DNA from: a virus
IMG/VR virus record: IMGVR_UViG_3300007735_000590
Location: 1 to 30,182 of that record
Length of the DNA stretch: 30,182 nucleotides
Reading direction: 5' to 3' (one strand)
Below are positions 11,461 through 28,115 of this stretch, piece by piece. The position numbers and the translations under genes are program-made. The number at the start of each line of letters is the position of its first letter. Positions within the stretch are counted from its first letter, which is position 1. The notes beneath the pieces were generated by a model that saw nothing but the letters and a program-made list of their open reading frames with translations, was not told the DNA's origin and searched no databases.

Positions 11461-12110
11461 ACTACATCGCAGTCTGCACCCCAGCGCGGGACATGGTCCA
11501 CACCAATTACACCTATTGCATGGTCAACATGGTGGCGTACCACACGCTCAACACCACTGACGCTGTGAGCTTGAAGATCCTGCAAGGCACACTGATCCAG
11601 AATCAGCGTGCTGATCTTTGCTTGGATGCGATGCGCGAAGGATGCAGCCATATCCTGTTCATTGACTCTGACATGACATTTCCGCAAGACATGATCCAGC
11701 GACTGCTGGCGCATGATGTGGACATCGTGGCAGCCAACTGCGCACGGCGCAGGATGCCTACAGGCCCGACTGCGCAGAATTACGATGAGAACGGAAAGCG
11801 CCAGCCCATCTACACCATGCCCGAGTCAACAGGCTTGGAGGAGATTGGATCTGTTGGCACTGGCATCATGATGATCAAGCGCGGTGTATTTGAGGGCATG
11901 ACAGAGCCATGGTTTGATATGCCTTGGCAGACTGGCACTCGCGGCTACATGGGCGAGGATGTGTTCTTTTGTAAGAAGGCGCAGGAGCTGGGCTACAAGG
12001 TGTATATTGACCATGATGTGTCGAAAGAGATCGGCCACATTGGCACGTTTGAATTCAGACACGACCACACTTGGATCGTCAAAGAAGAGATGGAAAAAGA
12101 GGCAGTCTAA
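11457..12110 (+). CDS. Second glycosyltransferase, GT-A type with DSD motif
   Basis: 217 residues. The GT-A fold is indicated by HILFIDSDMTFP (65-76) with the metal-binding Asp70-Ser-Asp72, the preceding MREGCSH helix, and a later GYMGEDVFFCKKA (163-175) with Glu167-Asp168 as the usual acidic pair. No membrane segment. It is placed inside the head-tail gene block, between a small head protein and the adaptor, and is distinct from the first glycosyltransferase at 5210 (different motifs, little similarity). The target could be a virion protein, phage DNA or host glycan. The start ATG overlaps the previous stop. Confidence 0.75.
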   Translation: MNYIAVCTPARDMVHTNYTYCMVNMVAYHTLNTTDAVSLKILQGTLIQNQRADLCLDAMREGCSHILFIDSDMTFPQDMIQRLLAHDVDIVAANCARRRMPTGPTAQNYDENGKRQPIYTMPESTGLEEIGSVGTGIMMIKRGVFEGMTEPWFDMPWQTGTRGYMGEDVFFCKKAQELGYKVYIDHDVSKEIGHIGTFEFRHDHTWIVKEEMEKEAV

Positions 12111-18685: not shown

Positions 18686-20167
18686 ATGGCATTCGTACCA
18701 CTCAAAATCCCACCAGGCATCTACCGCAACGGCACTGAGTATCAGTCTGCTGGGCGGTGGTTTGCCGCCAACCTTGTACGCTGGTTTGAGAACACCTTGC
18801 GCCCAATTGGCGGGTGGCGTAAGAAGTCAACAAGCCAACTGACAGGCAAGTGCCGTGGTCTTTTGACTTGGCGGGACAACAGCGGGGATCGTTGGATCGC
18901 TGCGGGAACTGAATCCAATCTCTACGCCATGAACGAGGCTGGGACACTTAAAGACATCACGCCCACAGGGTTCACAGCTGGCGTGGCTGACGCCACCATC
19001 AAGACTGGTTTCGGCTATGGACCCTATGGCTCATATGCCTATGGCATTGCGCGTCCCGATAACGGCACTGTGACACCAGCCACAACATGGTCCTTGGACA
19101 CTTGGGGTGAGTACTTGGTGGCCTGTTCGGACGCCGATGGCAAGCTGTACGAGTGGCAGTTGGGCTTCTCTACGCCAACCTTGGCGGCGGCCATCACCAA
19201 TGCGCCAACAGGCTGCGCGGCCTTGTTGTCCACTGCCGAGCGTTTCTTGTTTGCTTTGGGCGCTGGTGGCAATCCCCGCAAGGTGTCTTGGTGCGATCAG
19301 GAAAACAATACTGTCTGGACGGCTGCGGCCACCAATCAGGCTGGTGACTTTGAGCTGCAAACAGTTGGCGCGTTGAAGGCTGGCAAGAAGGTGCGCGGCA
19401 TAAATTTGCTCTTCACTGACGTTGACGTGCACACCGCCAGCTATGTCGGCGCACCTTATGTGTACTCATTTGAGAAGGCAGGCTCTGGCTGTGGTTTGAT
19501 CTCTGCGCAGGCTGTGGCTGCCATCGACACTGCCGCCATGTGGATGTCTTCATCAGGCTTCTGGATATTTGACGGCTATGTCAAGCCACTGCCCTGCGAT
19601 GTGTCTGATTATGTGTTTCAGAATCTGAACTACAACCAAGCCTCCAAGGTCTATGCGGTCCACAATTCCAAGTATGGCGAGATCTGGTGGTTCTACCCAT
19701 CTAGCGCCAGCAATGAGGTTGATTCCTACGTCACATTCAACTACCGCGAAAACCACTGGAACATTGGCTCCATGGCTCGCACGGCTGGCACTGACAGGGG
19801 TGTCTATTTGAATCCTCTGATGGTGTCAACTGACGGCTATATATACGAGCATGAGGTTGGCTTTGCCTATGACGGCGGGACTGTCTATGCCGAGTCTGGA
19901 CCCTTTGAGATTGGTCAGGGTGACAACATCATGTCGGTGCGTCAGGTGATCCCTGATGAGCAGTCTTTGGGCGAGGTTGCCATCAGCTTCAAGACGCGAC
20001 TGTATCCAACCTCAACCGAAACAACACATGGACCTTATCCAGCCTCACAGCCAACTGATGCGAGATTCTCTGGCCGTCAGGTGAAGATGATTGTGACTGG
20101 CGATGTGCTGGACGATTGGCGTGTTGGCGTCATGAGATTGGAAGCTGTGGCGGCGGGTAAGCGTTGA
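18686..20167 (+). CDS. Tail protein, P22 gp10-like (packaged-DNA stabilisation)
   Basis: 493 residues. The N-terminus (FVPLKIPPGIYRNGTEYQSAGRW) is the typical opening of gp10-like tail hub proteins, followed by repeated strand-turn units of a propeller-like body (LLTWRDNSGDRWIAAGTESN, then LYEWQLGFSTP) and a Tyr/Trp-rich later half (KYGEIWWFYPSSASNEVDSY). These proteins close the portal-adaptor channel and hold the packaged DNA in. The gene follows the lysis block, an arrangement found in several podophages. The call rests on N-terminus, size and context. Confidence 0.75.
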   Translation: MAFVPLKIPPGIYRNGTEYQSAGRWFAANLVRWFENTLRPIGGWRKKSTSQLTGKCRGLLTWRDNSGDRWIAAGTESNLYAMNEAGTLKDITPTGFTAGVADATIKTGFGYGPYGSYAYGIARPDNGTVTPATTWSLDTWGEYLVACSDADGKLYEWQLGFSTPTLAAAITNAPTGCAALLSTAERFLFALGAGGNPRKVSWCDQENNTVWTAAATNQAGDFELQTVGALKAGKKVRGINLLFTDVDVHTASYVGAPYVYSFEKAGSGCGLISAQAVAAIDTAAMWMSSSGFWIFDGYVKPLPCDVSDYVFQNLNYNQASKVYAVHNSKYGEIWWFYPSSASNEVDSYVTFNYRENHWNIGSMARTAGTDRGVYLNPLMVSTDGYIYEHEVGFAYDGGTVYAESGPFEIGQGDNIMSVRQVIPDEQSLGEVAISFKTRLYPTSTETTHGPYPASQPTDARFSGRQVKMIVTGDVLDDWRVGVMRLEAVAAGKR

Positions 20168-21966: not shown

Positions 21967-23640
21967 ATGGCGACATCATTTGACATGGGATTGCTTGGCG
22001 ACATCTTTGGCGGTGGCGGTGAGACTGGCCTTGAGGGATACTTGACACCAGCACAGCAGCAGGCAATGAGCCGTCAGGCTTTGTTGCAGGCTGCCATGGC
22101 TATTGGTCAGGCCAGCGGCCCCAGCACCACGCCACGGTCCTTGATGCAGATCCTTGGCTCTGGCGTTGCCGCCGGTCAGCAAGGCTATGCCGAGGCGCAA
22201 AAGAATGCCATCACCAATTTGCTGACAAGACAAAAACTTGATGAAGCAAAGCGCCAATTGGCGCAGCAAGAGGCTTATCAGCGTTTCATCATGGGCCAGC
22301 CTACCGAAGGCATGGAGATCACGCCACAGCAAGCTATTTCAGCGCCAGGTATGCCTGTTGGCCCAACAGTTCAGCGTGCAGAGATGATCGGCCAACCAGC
22401 GCCAAGAGTCTCTCCTACTGGAGCGGCCAACTTGAGTCCACAAATGCGCCAACTGTTGGCGGCCTTGCCTCCCGAGAAGGGCATCCCAGAGGCGTTGAAG
22501 TTTATGCAGCCAGCAGAAATTACTGGTGACATCTTCACCGCCACAGATGGCACGCAATATCAGCGTACAAAAACAGGTCAATTTGTGCCTATCCCAGCAG
22601 GGATGAAGTTTGCACAGGAAACAGTTGGCGAGCCATTCAAAGCTGCTGATGGCAAGTTCTATTTGCGCACAAAGACTGGCGGTTTTGTTCCAGCCGAACA
22701 AGGATTGGCCGCAAAGCCAGTCGGTCAGCCACAGCAAATGATGGGTCCAAATGGAAAGCCAGCACTTGTGCAGATGTATGACGATGGCACAAGTAAGGTT
22801 GTATCTGGCTTTACGCCATTGATACCGCCAGAGAAGATTGATACTGGTGGCGGCGTCAGATTCGTTAATCCTTATGAGATCCCGTCTGGCACAGTGTTCC
22901 CTAAAACACTTCCTCCTCAAGTTGTTGGCAGTGCTGAAGGTGGGTACTTTGCTATTGGCGGTGGCGGTGGTGGTGTCCGAGGCGGGATGCCTACTGCGCC
23001 AGCTCCAGCGGCAGCTCCATCACGCCGTGGCCCACCGATGCCAGGTGCGGCTGCGCCTGCGCCTGCGCCTGCGGCTACTGGCCCGCAGCCAATCATTCCT
23101 GGCACAGGCAAGGCATTTGCCAATGAAAAGGACTTGAGAACTGAATTCTCCGCGCAAGTAAAACCATATACAGAATTGGCGCAGGCCTTTAGAAAAGTTG
23201 AGGCGGCTGCCCTTAACCCGTCAGCAGCTGGAGACATTTCATTGGTCTATGGCTACATGAAGATTCTTGATCCAGGCTCAACCGTCATGCAAGGCGAACA
23301 AGCCACGGCTCAAAATGCTGGCAGTGTCCCAGACTCAGTAAGAGCCATGTACAACAAGGCTTTGACTGGCGAGTCATTGGCTCCAACTATTAGGCAAGAT
23401 TTTTATGCGCAAGCAAGAAACATCATTGAGTCTCAAAGAGAGCTGTCAAGTGACTTGATTCAAAGATATACAGGCGTTGCAAGAGAGTACAAGTTGAATC
23501 CGAATCAAATTGTTTATGATCCATTTAAGCGCATCAAGACACCAACTGAAGTTGCTGAAGAAGCTCTTAAAAATCAAGGCAAACAAAAAACTAACGCCAC
23601 ATACACAAATCAATATGGCCTGACTCCAAGGAGCAAATAA
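21967..23640 (+). CDS. Internal virion / ejection protein 2
   Basis: 557 residues from ATG 21967 (GAGGAT at 21954-21959); the frame is open to 21916, inside the previous gene. N-terminus Gly/Gln-rich with a helical segment. In the middle is a duplicated unit F-x-A-x-DG-x2-Y-x-RTKTG-x-FVP (about 189-211 and 223-245). Then a Pro/Ala-rich linker with a TGCGCC repeat (23052-23070). The C-terminal helical domain has LDPGSTVMQGEQATAQNAG and IRQDFYAQARNIIESQRELS, a pattern I recognise from other phage ejection-type proteins. It overlaps the next start by one base. Confidence 0.65.
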   Translation: MATSFDMGLLGDIFGGGGETGLEGYLTPAQQQAMSRQALLQAAMAIGQASGPSTTPRSLMQILGSGVAAGQQGYAEAQKNAITNLLTRQKLDEAKRQLAQQEAYQRFIMGQPTEGMEITPQQAISAPGMPVGPTVQRAEMIGQPAPRVSPTGAANLSPQMRQLLAALPPEKGIPEALKFMQPAEITGDIFTATDGTQYQRTKTGQFVPIPAGMKFAQETVGEPFKAADGKFYLRTKTGGFVPAEQGLAAKPVGQPQQMMGPNGKPALVQMYDDGTSKVVSGFTPLIPPEKIDTGGGVRFVNPYEIPSGTVFPKTLPPQVVGSAEGGYFAIGGGGGGVRGGMPTAPAPAAAPSRRGPPMPGAAAPAPAPAATGPQPIIPGTGKAFANEKDLRTEFSAQVKPYTELAQAFRKVEAAALNPSAAGDISLVYGYMKILDPGSTVMQGEQATAQNAGSVPDSVRAMYNKALTGESLAPTIRQDFYAQARNIIESQRELSSDLIQRYTGVAREYKLNPNQIVYDPFKRIKTPTEVAEEALKNQGKQKTNATYTNQYGLTPRSK

Positions 23641-25646
23641 TGGCAGAACAATCAAACGTCAATCGCGTTGGAGACAATGTGCGAAAAATGATGGAGCAAA
23701 ATGCTCCAGAGTCTGACATTATTGGATACCTCAAGTCTGAAGGCTTTACGCCAACAAAGTTTCAAGCGGCAGTTGCAAGCGCCAAGAAAGTTGGCGGCGC
23801 TCCTGTTGAAGCTGGTTTTGGCCGGTCATTCTTGCAAGGGTTGACATTCAACACCGCTGATGAAATTGAGGCCGCATTAAAGGCTGGCGCAATCAGTGGC
23901 CCTGAGTATCAGAATCAATTAGCAAGAGTCAGGGCTGGCATCAAGCAATATGAAGAGCAGTATCCTGGCCGATCATTTACAGGTGAGCTTGTTGGCGGCC
24001 TAGTACCGACAGCAGCGGCATTGATCGCGGCCCCATTTACTGGCGGCGCAACAGGTCCAGCAGCAGTGACAGGCGCAACACGCACGGCTGCCGCATTGCC
24101 AGGGCTTGGCACAAACATCTTGCGTGGCATGGGTTATGGCGCTGCATCAGGTGCGGCTGCTGGCGCTGGCGGCGCTGAAGGTGGCTTGGGTAACAGAGTA
24201 TTGGGCGGCGCTATTGGCGGCACTGCTGGCCTTGTATTGGGCGGTGCGGCTCCAGCTGTGACAACAACAGTTGGAACTGGTGGACGCAAGTTGGCAGAAT
24301 TTACCGGCTTGACTCAACCAGTTGATGCCACCATAAAGGCTCAACAGCTTATTGCGAAGAAGCTGGCTCAAGAGGGCGTGTCTCCACAAGAATTGGCAGC
24401 ACGCCAAGCTGATATTGTTGCCAAATATGGCGCAAGAGATGAAACCTTAGCAGATATTGCTGGTGAGTCTATGCGCCGATTGGGCCGTGGAGCCTTGGCT
24501 ATACCAAACGCAGCTCAAACAGAAACACGTCAAATGTTGACTGAGCGCGCCATAGGTACTGGCCCAAGAATCACAAGAGACATCACAGAATTCACCGCCA
24601 TTGGAGAGCGCGACATTGGTGAAGTTGCTGATGAGATTATTCTGCGCAGAGCCGAGCAAGCTGCGCCACTTTATAAGCAGGCGCTGTCTGCTGGTCAGGT
24701 CAATTCATTTGCAATTGACAATTTGCTGAGAAAGTCAAAAGACATTCAGAATGCCATCAGTGATGCTCGCAAGTTGCCGCAATATGCAGATCTGCCTGAC
24801 AACGACATGATCTTGCTTGACAAGGCTTATAAATACGTTGGAGACGCTGCAAACGAGGCAAGGAAAGCAGGGAAAGGAACACGTGCAAACGATCTTGATG
24901 ATTTGCGTATTTCTTTATTGAATGCAATCTCAGACAAAGACACAGGCGTGCCGGTTTACAAAGAGGCCGTCAAAGTGTTTTATGACGAGTCATTGTTGAA
25001 AGATGCGCTGGAATTGGGTTCTAAGAACTTCTTAAAGAAGACCCCATCAGAAATTTCCAAAGAGATGAAGAAATTCCCAGGCGATGCGGAGCGCGAGATG
25101 TATCGACTTGGCGCTGTCCAGTCTTTGCGTGACGAGATTTATGGGATGCGCGAAACGGCAAACATTGCCGACAAGTTTTTGAACAACCGCGAAATGCGGG
25201 ACCGCATGAAGACCATCTTCAATTCGACTGGCGAGTATGAAGCATTCGTCAAGAATCTTGAGCGTGAGCGCCAGATGGCCGTCACACGATCACGCATTGA
25301 GGGTGTGTCACCTACCGCACCAATACAGCAAGACATCGCTGAATTGCAGGGTCCATCGCCAACTGACGTAATTGAAGCTGGCACTCAAATGGCAAGGGGC
25401 GATCTTGTTGGTGGCGGTATGAACATGATGCGCCAACTGGCTCCACGATTGCAAGGCATGGATGAGAATGTTGCAGAGCTAATAAGCCGCAGTGTTTTTG
25501 ATCCAAGTTTTGCGCAACAGCAACAACTATTGACGAGCTTGACGCCAGTCATGGATGAGCTGCGCAGACGCGCAATGCAGCAACAGGTTCGCGCAGCTGG
25601 TACATCAACAACAGCTGGTCAGCTTGTCCCAGGTCTTCTTGATTAA
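23640..25646 (+). CDS. Internal virion / ejection protein 3
   Basis: 668 residues, the largest of the series. N-terminal helical region (about 1-80, with FGRSFLQGLTFNTADEIEAA), a Gly/Ala-rich hydrophobic region (about 115-210, GGLVPTAAALIAAPFTGGAT and GGAIGGTAGLVLGG) suited to insertion into membranes, and a long helical, charged C-terminal part. No lytic transglycosylase motif was noticed. ATG 23640 overlaps the previous stop by one base (TAATG). Structural role inferred from its features and neighbours. Confidence 0.65.
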   Translation: MAEQSNVNRVGDNVRKMMEQNAPESDIIGYLKSEGFTPTKFQAAVASAKKVGGAPVEAGFGRSFLQGLTFNTADEIEAALKAGAISGPEYQNQLARVRAGIKQYEEQYPGRSFTGELVGGLVPTAAALIAAPFTGGATGPAAVTGATRTAAALPGLGTNILRGMGYGAASGAAAGAGGAEGGLGNRVLGGAIGGTAGLVLGGAAPAVTTTVGTGGRKLAEFTGLTQPVDATIKAQQLIAKKLAQEGVSPQELAARQADIVAKYGARDETLADIAGESMRRLGRGALAIPNAAQTETRQMLTERAIGTGPRITRDITEFTAIGERDIGEVADEIILRRAEQAAPLYKQALSAGQVNSFAIDNLLRKSKDIQNAISDARKLPQYADLPDNDMILLDKAYKYVGDAANEARKAGKGTRANDLDDLRISLLNAISDKDTGVPVYKEAVKVFYDESLLKDALELGSKNFLKKTPSEISKEMKKFPGDAEREMYRLGAVQSLRDEIYGMRETANIADKFLNNREMRDRMKTIFNSTGEYEAFVKNLERERQMAVTRSRIEGVSPTAPIQQDIAELQGPSPTDVIEAGTQMARGDLVGGGMNMMRQLAPRLQGMDENVAELISRSVFDPSFAQQQQLLTSLTPVMDELRRRAMQQQVRAAGTSTTAGQLVPGLLD

Positions 25647-25655
25647 GGCATCACC

Positions 25656-26762
25656 ATGGCAACAATGCGCCCCACACCCCGCAATGAGCTTTTGGGCTTG
25701 TTGTCTGATGCCTACAAGTGGATGCAGTCACCTGAACGCGCCCAGCAGATGCAGGGCTTTGCTGGGTTGCTTGGCACGACTGGCGTGCCTCAGACGATTG
25801 AGCGCATGGCTTATGGCGAGCCACTGACCAACATTGGCCGCGCCAATGTGCCATTGCTCAAGCCTGAGACTGCTGATGCCCTGATGACTGTTGCGCCAAT
25901 GGCAAAGCCAGCGGCTGTGATGGCAGGTCGTACAGGTCGAGCAGTCGGACGCATGGCGGGTGAGGAGATCAATGCCGCGATGACTGGTCAGACTACAAGT
26001 TCATTACTTGGTCAGATTACGCCAAAGCCAATGCAAATTGTTCCTCCAAGCGTAGCAAGACAGATTGATATGCCTGTTAATCTGCCGACAAGTCAAGAAT
26101 TTATGACGGCAGTTAAGAATGAGCCATCTGCGCAAATTACAGAAGAAGGTTTGTTGTTGAATTTAACCAGAAGACAAAAGCCAGAACAGGCTGGCTCTGA
26201 GTCTGTAAGAACTGGCGTGTTTTATCTCCCAGAAGGCCAAAAAAAGAATTTGACCCATTACAAAGGAAACACTTTTTATGGCGGCTCTTCACCAATTGAA
26301 GGTGAAACACTTTATAAAAATCCTTTATTTGTAAAAGGCGCAACGGGTGGTAAAGCTCCTGAAGCTGCATATACACAAATAATGGGTAAAGATGCAATGA
26401 AAAAAATGGATGCTGATATTTTTTCAGCAGTCAATGAAAAAAATTGGATGTCTAAACAAGACCCTGATCTTTATGTTGAAAGAATATCAAGGCTGTTAAG
26501 TGATTATGGTGGTGATCCATCAATGGCTAAATTTATTATAAACAACAGCAAACAAGGAAATCAGTTGAGATATGCCATACAAGAAAACATCATTGCCAAC
26601 GCAGTTCGCAATGCTGGGCATGATGCTGTATTGGGTTATGGGAAAGGCCGTGGAGGCAAGGGAGAATTCTTTTCTGAAGTATTTGATGTGAGAGAACAAA
26701 ACTATCCAACGCCACAAGGCGATTATCAATTGATGCCTCAGTTTGAGGGATTGCTTAAGTAG
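25656..26762 (+). CDS. Ejection-type protein with ADP-ribosyltransferase-like C-terminus
   Basis: 368 residues in two parts. The N-terminal part (about 1-110; MRPTPRNELLGLLSDAYKWM, then QQMQGFAGLLGTTGVPQTIE) has GC-rich codons and a pattern shared by other phage ejection-type proteins. The C-terminal part (about 165-368) is AT-rich and has GVFYLPEG, YKNPLFVKG, a helical stretch and a final AGHDAVLGYG...GEFFSEVFDVRE (about 330-355). These strands and order resemble the ADP-ribosyltransferase-like (ART/PolyVal) domains attached to phage polyvalent proteins, where an NPL strand and a G-x-D-A-V...E-V-F-D ending are usual. The catalytic identity is inferred and weak. It is the last gene of the plus-strand block and overlaps a minus-strand gene by 8 bp. 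Confidence 0.5.
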   Translation: MATMRPTPRNELLGLLSDAYKWMQSPERAQQMQGFAGLLGTTGVPQTIERMAYGEPLTNIGRANVPLLKPETADALMTVAPMAKPAAVMAGRTGRAVGRMAGEEINAAMTGQTTSSLLGQITPKPMQIVPPSVARQIDMPVNLPTSQEFMTAVKNEPSAQITEEGLLLNLTRRQKPEQAGSESVRTGVFYLPEGQKKNLTHYKGNTFYGGSSPIEGETLYKNPLFVKGATGGKAPEAAYTQIMGKDAMKKMDADIFSAVNEKNWMSKQDPDLYVERISRLLSDYGGDPSMAKFIINNSKQGNQLRYAIQENIIANAVRNAGHDAVLGYGKGRGGKGEFFSEVFDVREQNYPTPQGDYQLMPQFEGLLK

Positions 26763-27126
26763 CATCTCCAAACAACGCAGCCACCAGCGGGTCACGCTTA
26801 ATCTTCCACTTCTTTGCCCGCTCCCGCGCCATCCGAAAGGCGTGGTCATCGAGGGACTCTTTGGCTCTCCACTTAACAAGCCTCTCTCTCGCCGTCAAAG
26901 GCTTTGGCCTTGTCGCGTCAGAGCCGATGCCGTAACTGTAGACGGCCACAGGGACGTTACCGATCCTGCGCCACTCTGAGATGTACACCAGACCAGACTT
27001 GCGCAGCCTCGCAATCAGGATCTGCGCAGACCTTTGGGTGCAGTACACCTTGGCGGCCACCTCATGCGCCGTGAGGGCATTGAGGGTCAGCAAATCAATG
27101 ATGCGGGGCAGGCGCGTTGACTTCAT
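26755..27126 (-). CDS. Winged-helix DNA-binding protein
   Basis: 123 residues. The N-terminal part (about 6-65) has the helix-turn-helix and wing pattern: LLTLNALTAHEVAAKVYCTQ then RSAQILIARLRKSGLVYISE and a beta hairpin (RRIGNVPVAVYSYG). The C-terminal part is basic (RMARERAKKWKIKRD) and ends RDPLVAALFG, an ending I associate with phage wHTH proteins. It is likely a transcription factor acting on phage or host promoters. Its start overlaps the stop of the C2H2 gene (ATGA), and its end overlaps the last plus-strand gene by 8 bp, tail to tail. Confidence 0.75.
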   Translation of the reverse strand: MKSTRLPRIIDLLTLNALTAHEVAAKVYCTQRSAQILIARLRKSGLVYISEWRRIGNVPVAVYSYGIGSDATRPKPLTARERLVKWRAKESLDDHAFRMARERAKKWKIKRDPLVAALFGDAT

Positions 27127-27293
27127 TTCTTGTCGCTGTGCTCGCGTCTGGCGTGTCTCTCGGCCTCTTCACGGCGCTTGAAGTACTTGTCGCACTTGAT
27201 GCACCGCCACCAAGTTTGCTCAACAACGCGGGTCTGTCTGTCGCTGTGCAGGCCTCTTGTTGTGCCGTACATGGTCAGGACTGGCTCAATCAC
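27123..27293 (-). CDS. Tiny C2H2 zinc-finger protein (56 aa)
   Basis: From GTG 27293 to TGA 27123. An exact classical finger pattern is present: C-x2-C-x12-H-x4-H in CIKCDKYF...AERHARREH, with basic residues in the helix (KRREEAERHARR), suitable for nucleic-acid contact. ATG 27272 is an alternative start seven codons downstream; the GTG is favoured because it overlaps the previous stop (GTGA), as nearly all junctions in this operon do. C2H2 fingers of this exact spacing are unusual in bacteria but do occur in small phage and rhizobial proteins. A host or phage regulator is plausible. Confidence 0.7.
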   Translation of the reverse strand: MIEPVLTMYGTTRGLHSDRQTRVVEQTWWRCIKCDKYFKRREEAERHARREHSDKK

Positions 27294-27469
27294 TTCTTGG
27301 CCGCCTTGGCTAATGCGTAAACCAGAATCGGCTTCTTCTTGCCGATGCCGTGATTCTTCTGTTGCGTGGCGGCTGACTTCTTGCCGGCGATGTGCCTGCG
27401 CAGTGAGTCATCTTTGCTAAAGATGGATGGCGTTCCATCGTTCCAATTGAATGCTGATTTTGTTGTCAT
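27290..27469 (-). CDS. Small basic hypothetical protein (59 aa)
   Basis: Start ATG 27469, two bases after the stop of the epimerase-like gene. A longer frame to 27520 exists, but it would overlap the epimerase gene by 49 nt and has no better ribosome-binding site. The product is Lys-rich (KKSAATQQKNHGIGKKKP, then LAKAAKK), with no membrane segment; the first half has FNWNDGTPSIF. Not recognised. It belongs to the tightly coupled minus-strand operon. Confidence 0.55.
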   Translation of the reverse strand: MTTKSAFNWNDGTPSIFSKDDSLRRHIAGKKSAATQQKNHGIGKKKPILVYALAKAAKK

Positions 27470-27471
27470 GT

Positions 27472-27933
27472 TTACTTTGAATCTTTTTGCGAAATGATTG
27501 GAGTTATCGCCAAAGGCCATTCAATGCCGTAGCTGTCCCAGCGAAATATCTTCTCTTGGCTTGGATCGTATGGCGCGTCAACGATGTACTGCACGATGGC
27601 TTGCGCAGACAGCACAAGGTAACCATGTGCATATTGCGGCGGTATCAGTAAGGCCTTGCACTCATCAAGCTCAATTCCAAACCATTTGCCTGTCTCAGGG
27701 TCCAGCACAACATCAAATATTTGCCCAAGCACTGGCATCACAAACTTTGTCTGATTCTGATAGTGCAGGCCGCGCAGCACGCCAAACTTGGATGAGGCCA
27801 GATTCAACTGTCGATATTCACCGCGATTGGATTTCCACATCTCCATGAAATAACCTCTGTCATCAGAGTGCTTGTGATTGGTGATGACTTGAATTCCATC
27901 AAGCATTTTGCCTTTGTAATAAACCGGATTCAT
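27472..27933 (-). CDS. rfbC: RmlC-like dTDP-4-dehydrorhamnose 3,5-epimerase (short)
   Basis: 153 residues from ATG 27933 (GGGGAT about 6 nt upstream; the longer frame to 27954 has no support and the chosen start overlaps the previous TGA). A cupin epimerase: DDRGYFMEMWKS (about 24-35), VLRGLHYQ with probable catalytic His57, IPPQYAHGYLVLS (about 97-109), Tyr116, and a final YGIEWPL. These match the RmlC family, which makes dTDP-rhamnose precursors for surface glycans. It is somewhat shorter than the usual 180 residues, lacking part of the C-terminus, so the partner reaction may differ (another cupin sugar isomerase is possible). No other rhamnose-pathway genes are seen nearby. Confidence 0.8.
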   Translation of the reverse strand: MNPVYYKGKMLDGIQVITNHKHSDDRGYFMEMWKSNRGEYRQLNLASSKFGVLRGLHYQNQTKFVMPVLGQIFDVVLDPETGKWFGIELDECKALLIPPQYAHGYLVLSAQAIVQYIVDAPYDPSQEKIFRWDSYGIEWPLAITPIISQKDSK

Positions 27934-28115
27934 GCATATCCCCATTTTTTGCATAGTTTCTTGATCTTGGCTCTGAGCTTCTTCTTTTCGCAGACCTTGG
28001 CGTGCTGGCTCTCAATCATCTTCTCGCGCAGTGACTGTGGCGTTGGTGGCGCAGGGAACAACCCATTCCAGCCAATCAGGCCACACACCAAGGCGATGAG
28101 AAGGCGGTCTGTCAT
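27930..28115 (-). CDS. Small protein with N-terminal membrane segment
   Basis: 61 residues: an N-terminal hydrophobic stretch (LLIALVCGLIGWNGLFPA, about 5-22) followed by a strongly basic tail (KVCEKKKLRAKIKKLCKKWG). It could be secreted or anchored with a cytoplasmic or periplasmic positive tail. AAGGAG lies about 8 nt upstream. It is coupled to genes on both sides by ATGA overlaps. No family is recognised. Confidence 0.6.
   Translation of the reverse strand: MTDRLLIALVCGLIGWNGLFPAPPTPQSLREKMIESQHAKVCEKKKLRAKIKKLCKKWGYA

Follow-up and report, generated by a model that had tools for sequence, protein, structure and literature searches.

A gene in two parts of different composition

The gene described here occupies positions 25656-26762 (+ strand) of IMG/VR virus record IMGVR_UViG_3300007735_000590, which we analyzed as a stretch of 30,182 nt (hereafter the window, to which all coordinates refer). 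It forms a single open reading frame (ORF) of 368 amino acids (aa), the final + strand late gene before a strand switch, and is directly followed by a convergent minus-strand ORF (26755-27126). An earlier inspection of the bare sequence had placed an ORF here and read it as an ejection protein with a conserved N-terminus and an exchangeable C-terminus resembling ADP-ribosyltransferases (ARTs). The ORF lies where this original prediction put it, and the peptides that had drawn attention are present: GVFYLPEG at residues 187-194, YKNPLFVKG at 220-228 and AGHDAV...SEVFD at 320-344.

The protein consists of two modules. The first, or N-module (residues 1-125; 25656-26030, +), is a conserved, Gly/Ala-rich, helical platform without a confident fold; four of its columns are invariant among 26 members. 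Conservation of the N-terminus had been anticipated, although its length had been put at 110 residues and is closer to 125-128. The second, or C-domain (residues 124-368; 26025-26759, +), represents a new ART-like family, described below. The two parts differ sharply in composition, as had been noted by eye: GC content is 0.571 and GC at third codon positions (GC3) 0.568 at 25656-26030, versus 0.391 and 0.288 at 26031-26759. Of 38 blocks of 729 nt drawn from the remaining + strand genes, none is as AT-rich as the latter segment (minimum GC, 0.455), which also contains runs of 5-7 A at 26239, 26316, 26400 and 26437. All 18 relatives compared show the same contrast, their C-part being the AT-richer of the two (mean difference 0.124; Wilcoxon P 7.6e-6); the composition break is a family-wide property, not one peculiar to this gene. 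A chimeric assembly as the source of the two-part gene was ruled out, because an independent contig (L001; relatives are designated by L numbers) reproduces the entire region, matching window positions 22001-27469 (5.5 kb) in a single piece at 92% identity.

Exchange of the C-terminal cassette

A search of IMG/VR viral loci with the whole protein returned 27 loci, only three of which match over the full length. The rest match residues 1-128 or part thereof, several of them at 91-93% identity, and comparison of the full ORFs shows that N-modules of 74-93% identity sit on unrelated C-termini. The borders of the exchange are visible in the DNA. Homology to L005-L008 begins at 25641 or 25653, runs at 93-95% identity and ends at 26030; past the exchanged segment it returns at 26765 or 26768 (about 26768, 6 nt after the stop codon) wherever the contig continues (that of L008 ends inside the gene, so that its right flank is not covered). 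In L117, homology is back at 26748, on the codons of a C-terminal GLLK. The exchanged segment, which we term the cassette (26031-26767, +), is AT-rich and has no blastn homology to L004-L010, L116 or L117 despite homologous flanks. The swapping of the C-terminus that had been proposed is thus seen at both the protein and the DNA level: conservation along the homologues is uneven, and a constant N-module is joined to an exchanged C-terminus. In most relatives the flank becomes homologous again no more than 6 nt from the stop codon, and no cassette-linked immunity gene lies adjacent; such an absence is what one would predict for a cargo active in the infected cell alone.

The variety of cassettes is considerable. 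We counted 12 types of first cassette in 21 distinct proteins whose N-module is close to that of the window (at least 55% identity), and C-terminal similarity links only 40 of the 210 pairs. The types include ParB_N (L004), ART-PolyVal (L011 and L072; weaker in L120 and L116), the RNase PBECR5 (L013 and L117), LPD23 (L015 and L016; weaker in L028) and GNAT (L123). L028 also matches metallopeptidase models (Peptidase_M78/DUF6782 among the cassette identities), the remaining types include unknowns, and tandem pairs of cassettes occur in L011, L056 and L072. Two genes upstream are exchanged as well in close relatives: compared with L005-L010, window positions 22245-25640 lack homology, which breaks off near 22244 and returns at 25641, and the entire ejection block is therefore mosaic.

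The cassette border is marked by the seam LLGQITPKPM (residues 117-126; 26004-26033, +), whose motif, [S/G]LLx..TPxP, occurs in 23 ORFs with differing N- and C-modules. At the other end stands the GLLK tail (26748-26759, +), shared in the form GLL by unrelated cassettes and by the gene upstream. The two elements meet in L056, where the GLL tail of the first cassette is fused to the SPITPQPM that starts the second. GLL followed by 0-4 residues closes 21 of 52 distinct effector tails; among 551 other genes the number is 20 (Fisher P 5e-14, a value that counts related sequences as if they were independent). Many of those 20 resemble further proteins from the same late gene cluster, and phiM5_28, a protein detected in virions, ends in KGLL. 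The GLL codons differ between cassettes (GGATTGCTT, GGGCTGTTA, GGCCTACTC, GGTTTACTT), which suggests that it is the peptide that is under selection. On this ground we rejected, for most cassettes, simple inheritance of the DNA as the explanation for the tail, yet homology to L117 does return at the tail. The motif, common to unrelated cassettes and neighboring ejection-type genes, may be new; it could tag proteins for loading, mark a site of processing or be nothing more than a recombination seam. We would entertain, as a tentative idea suggested by sequence patterns, that the ejection apparatus uses it as a code for loading or processing, whereby an enzyme set between seam and tail would be packaged and injected, the unrecognized ART family being one such cargo. 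In one subgroup, tails of the form DPFGN...R stand in for GLL (C-termini of L002 and L014-L018), and a DP[FL]G peptide (YYQDPFGAPDYSAEG) lies near the N-terminus of another (L019-L027).

Farther downstream, a minus-strand ORF (27472-27954) resembles, by eye, dTDP-4-dehydrorhamnose 3,5-epimerase (RmlC). It lies on a segment of about 465 bp (27470-27934) that is present in L125/L126 and missing in L001, L004, L009, L010 and L117; in contigs without it, 26768-27469 joins 27935 onward, through either insertion or loss.

The C-domain and its likeness to ADP-ribosyltransferases

The C-domain recurs in 51 viral loci and in 2 contigs of metagenome-assembled genomes. It is found in short proteins behind many different N-termini, within proteins of about 2000-4200 aa (L038, L063, L073-L085, L091, L094 and L095) and alone, as proteins of 245-247 aa (L039-L045). 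One of the giants, L038, combines it with ART-PolyVal stretches, a cytosine methylase and another methyltransferase, and therefore follows the pattern of polyvalent proteins. The stand-alone proteins, from contigs of 13-140 kb, all start with M[KQ]T[KI]F..FINEHISPD, a short N-terminal peptide that may be a capsid-targeting tag. Residues invariant across 42 aligned sequences (alignment A2) include R172, Q174, Q178, R185, GVFY187-190, Y202, Y208, N302, E310, R318, D323, S340 and E341 (protein numbers equal domain numbers plus 123). Ratios of nonsynonymous to synonymous substitution (dN/dS) between the window and its relatives are 0.10-0.29, and the domain is therefore under purifying selection. 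Sequence searches place it in no established family: there was no significant match to the whole protein in PHROGs or among PDB sequences, nor to C-domain alignment A1 among the latter; the stand-alone relative L039 matched no Pfam family at E<=0.1; and the domain was not found in plasmids or annotated phages, where two low-scoring matches to phages, at E 0.3 and E 7, were disregarded. A single-sequence profile walk from L011 brought no expansion.

AlphaFold2 run on the C-domain alignment gave a model with a predicted local distance difference test (pLDDT) score of 91.3 and a predicted template modeling (TM) score (pTM) of 0.90. In a Foldseek comparison, the PDB fold match of highest probability among the matches listed was 6kyf (E 0.016, probability 0.80), the structure of the ADP-ribosyltransferase anti-CRISPR AcrIF11 (PMC12421852). 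The lowest E-value (0.010) belonged to 9k3a_B, from the pre-ejectosome of cyanophage A4, a weak match with a probability of 0.33. This chain is a 1071-aa ejectosome protein and, if the match were real, an ART-like domain would have been seen inside a virion. Matches to flavivirus polymerases and KaiC, with probabilities of at most 0.05, were treated as noise. Among viral models (BFVD), the top match was a 184-aa protein of Serratia phage Moabite (E 3.1e-4, probability 1.00), and several proteins named ART-PolyVal or polyvalent stood lower in the list. An ART-PolyVal profile that we built has a single match in the Moabite genome, a coding sequence of exactly 184 aa (hhalign P 4e-7), which from phage and length we infer to be the BFVD entry. 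With AcrIF11 and ART-PolyVal proteins among its fold matches, the domain does not present a predicted fold unrelated to ARTs, the result that would have spoken against the original prediction; the model makes an ART-like fold likely.

Profile comparison points in the same direction. Aligned by hhalign with two ART-PolyVal alignments, the C-domain gave P values of 0.0019 and 0.0022, three unrelated alignments used as controls giving 0.33, 0.34 and 0.94, and the register set GVFYLP on the GFYFT strand and KNPLFVKG on the KNPL strand. A scan of 299 genomes of one phylum, meant to deepen the ART profile, found no PF18760 member. ART-PolyVal proteins have an H-Y-D triad, with the His in strand 1, the Tyr in strand 2 and the Asp in strand 5, and R-S-E ARTs such as T4 Alt have an Arg among their active-site residues (PMC5512222). 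In the C-domain the Tyr and the Asp of the triad are invariant and the His is missing. Alignment, model and hhalign register make Y190, in strand 2 (GVFY; 26223-26225, +), the proposed equivalent of the Tyr; by the alignments, D323 (AG[YH]DAV; 26622-26624, +) would correspond to the Asp of the ART-PolyVal GYDG. The invariant R172, at the end of strand 1 (26169-26171, +), is on the evidence of alignment and model a candidate for NAD binding where ART-PolyVal has its His, and the invariant E341 (SE[VI]FD; 26676-26678, +), in the last strand, is an alternative candidate for the catalytic acid. Since the Tyr and Asp positions are kept and the His is replaced by an Arg of the kind that R-S-E ARTs use, the domain is predicted to be ART-like, probably active and outside PF18760.

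Probable delivery of the effector and comparison with known systems

The window encodes SU10-type capsid and portal proteins (Pfam), an adaptor homologue at 12110 (phrog_2941, matched also by SU10 gp11) and a nozzle protein homologue (18686-20167, +; phrog_3287, matched also by SU10 gp17). The effector gene lies beside late virion genes and closes the block behind the nozzle gene, directly ahead of the strand switch; its upstream neighbor (23640-25646, +; phrog_5880) encodes a candidate ejection protein of 668 aa ending in PGLLD. The products of the equivalent SU10 block, gp20-24, are found in virions and are gone after genome release (PMC9509320), and those of the three corresponding genes phiM5_28/29/31 are annotated as internal virion proteins and were detected in particles. 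Because these proteins, encoded in the same place, are virion-detected, packaging and ejection of the window protein are likely, even though the two groups show no sequence similarity (no PHROG is shared with SU10 gp20-24, and SU10 is absent from the tblastn matches of the 25656 and 23640 genes). The label "ejection-type" for its N-terminus likewise derives from gene position and from virion data on relatives, not from homology or fold. An N-terminal pattern, I.VP..G.V.FPD.M...[DE]I or similar, is discernible by eye in L010, L020, L032, L211 (OH gp37), L210 (the virion-detected phiM5_31) and L079, a set of ejection-type proteins and one 3100-aa polyvalent-type protein; it is possibly a second packaging module.

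The interpretation we favor, and consider probable, is that an SU10-type short-tailed phage here encodes a short polyvalent ejection effector built from two modules, whose ART-fold cassette is packaged and injected. The N-module (residues 1-125) would probably dock the effector with other ejection proteins within the head, and the effector would exit through the nozzle together with, or before, the DNA. The C-domain (residues 124-368), as a new ART-fold cassette, would then probably use host NAD+ on a host protein early in infection; possible targets are a defense protein, by analogy with AcrIF11, or the transcription machinery, by analogy with T4 Alt. Virion packaging, injection, catalysis and host target are all features that we infer for the window protein. 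Related phages would exchange the cassette alone by recombination between conserved flanks, the left one formed by N-module and seam and the right one by the stop codon with the convergent gene, and incoming cassettes would bring nuclease, other ART, metallopeptidase-like or acetyltransferase domains.

Several points weigh against this interpretation. Foldseek returned no PDB match at E<=0.001, and TM-scores were low (0.28/0.45), which a helical insert could perhaps explain. The full protein matches no Pfam family even at E<=10; the link that hhalign gives to ART-PolyVal is no more than suggestive, and the C-domain set against the single Moabite sequence gave a negative result (P 0.45). The N-module has no known homologue in PHROGs and yielded no usable AlphaFold2 model (pLDDT 51). 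The strand-1 His is absent, with an invariant Arg in its place. Together with the lack of an experimentally studied relative and with the pre-ejectosome chain 9k3a_B as top PDB match by E-value, if a weak one (probability 0.33), this would also suit a C-domain of ART-derived fold that is no longer a transferase and serves as a nucleotide or host-protein binder or as a structural part of the ejection complex. We regard this as unlikely, since the invariant R172, Q174, Q178, R185, Y190, Y202, E310, R318, D323, S340 and E341 are more in keeping with an active site than with a scaffold, the active site of T4 Alt and other R-S-E ARTs includes an Arg (PMC5512222), and a scaffold would not be expected to be swapped for nucleases and acetyltransferases.

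It is quite unlikely that the effector stays outside the virion, as a late cytoplasmic protein with a role in host takeover, superinfection exclusion or lysis timing that happens to lie beside structural genes. The N-module has no recognized packaging domain and the phage is known from sequence, not proteomics; however, the gene closes the late block, at the position that the genes of the virion-detected SU10 gp24 and phiM5_31 occupy, its GLL tail is common to adjoining ejection-type genes, and LPD, PBECR, ART-PolyVal and ParB cassettes belong to the polyvalent-protein pool, which is predicted to be packaged (PMC5512222). A MuF-kind polymorphic toxin, with which lysogens or particles would attack competing bacteria, would share the constant N-part, variable C-part and overlapping enzyme repertoire (PMC5576092) but is very improbable, as no MuF domain was found with Pfam or PHROG, the return of flank homology at the stop codon leaves no space for a cassette-linked immunity gene, and no integrase turned up in the window, though none was searched for.

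If the gene does encode an injected effector, a constant-N/variable-C layout known from the MuF toxins of temperate phages would extend to the ejection block of an SU10-type podophage. The analysis also delineates a new ART-like domain family and makes explicit predictions for its residues, and reading out cassettes across environmental relatives would provide a cultivation-free directory of probable injected early effectors, showing what SU10-type phages deliver within the first minutes of infection. Seam and tail make a virion-loading signal directly testable; a GLL loading code, if true, would amount to a modular cargo-loading system in these phages.

No paper on constant-N, swapped-C ejection effectors of SU10-type phages was found in open-access text. 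SU10 gp20-24 (PMC9509320) and phiM5_28/29/31 share the position between nozzle gene and strand switch and are virion-detected; unlike them in sequence, the window protein matches none, and gp24 has 1473 aa and no Pfam hit. T4 Alt, a virion-carried and injected ART, offers a functional model, although it belongs to the R-S-E clade. Neither cassette swapping nor an N-terminal part of the window type is known for T4 Alt. AcrIF11 (6KYF) resembles the C-domain in having a helical region in the middle of the ART fold, but it is a stand-alone protein of 137 aa that targets Csy1, and PDB sequence searches gave no match to it. With the ART-PolyVal (PF18760)/Tox-ART-HYD2 clade, the C-domain has in common the order of strand 1, the G-x-[YF]-x strand 2, the KNPL strand, a helical part, AGYDx(V/I) and the last strand, including the Tyr and Asp positions; it differs in lacking a Pfam match, in an invariant R-x-Q instead of the strand-1 His and in a large helical insert (domain residues 110-196).

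Polyvalent proteins draw on the same domain pool (ART-PolyVal, ParB, PBECR, LPD, GNAT and metallopeptidase) and lie in a similar late virion gene context (PMC5512222). The C-domain itself occurs within proteins of 2000-4200 aa, and L072, L056 and L011 have two cassettes; effector domains are combined at the level of the family, the window protein carrying one recognized effector domain. Polyvalent proteins, however, do not follow the secreted-toxin plan of mainly C-terminal variability (Iyer et al. 2017, PMC5512222), whereas the family described here is short and two-module, with a constant N-module, precise exchange at the DNA level and a conserved seam and tail. In this it resembles the MuF polymorphic toxins of temperate phages (PMC5576092), which join a constant, virion-linked N-part to a variable C-terminal toxin or enzyme. 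In contrast to MuF toxin genes, 89.4% of which have behind them a small ORF interpreted as an immunity gene (PMC5576092), the window gene has neither a MuF domain nor a linked immunity gene, and it lies in the ejection block of an SU10-type podophage. The window system would work like a polyvalent effector and is laid out like a MuF polymorphic toxin.
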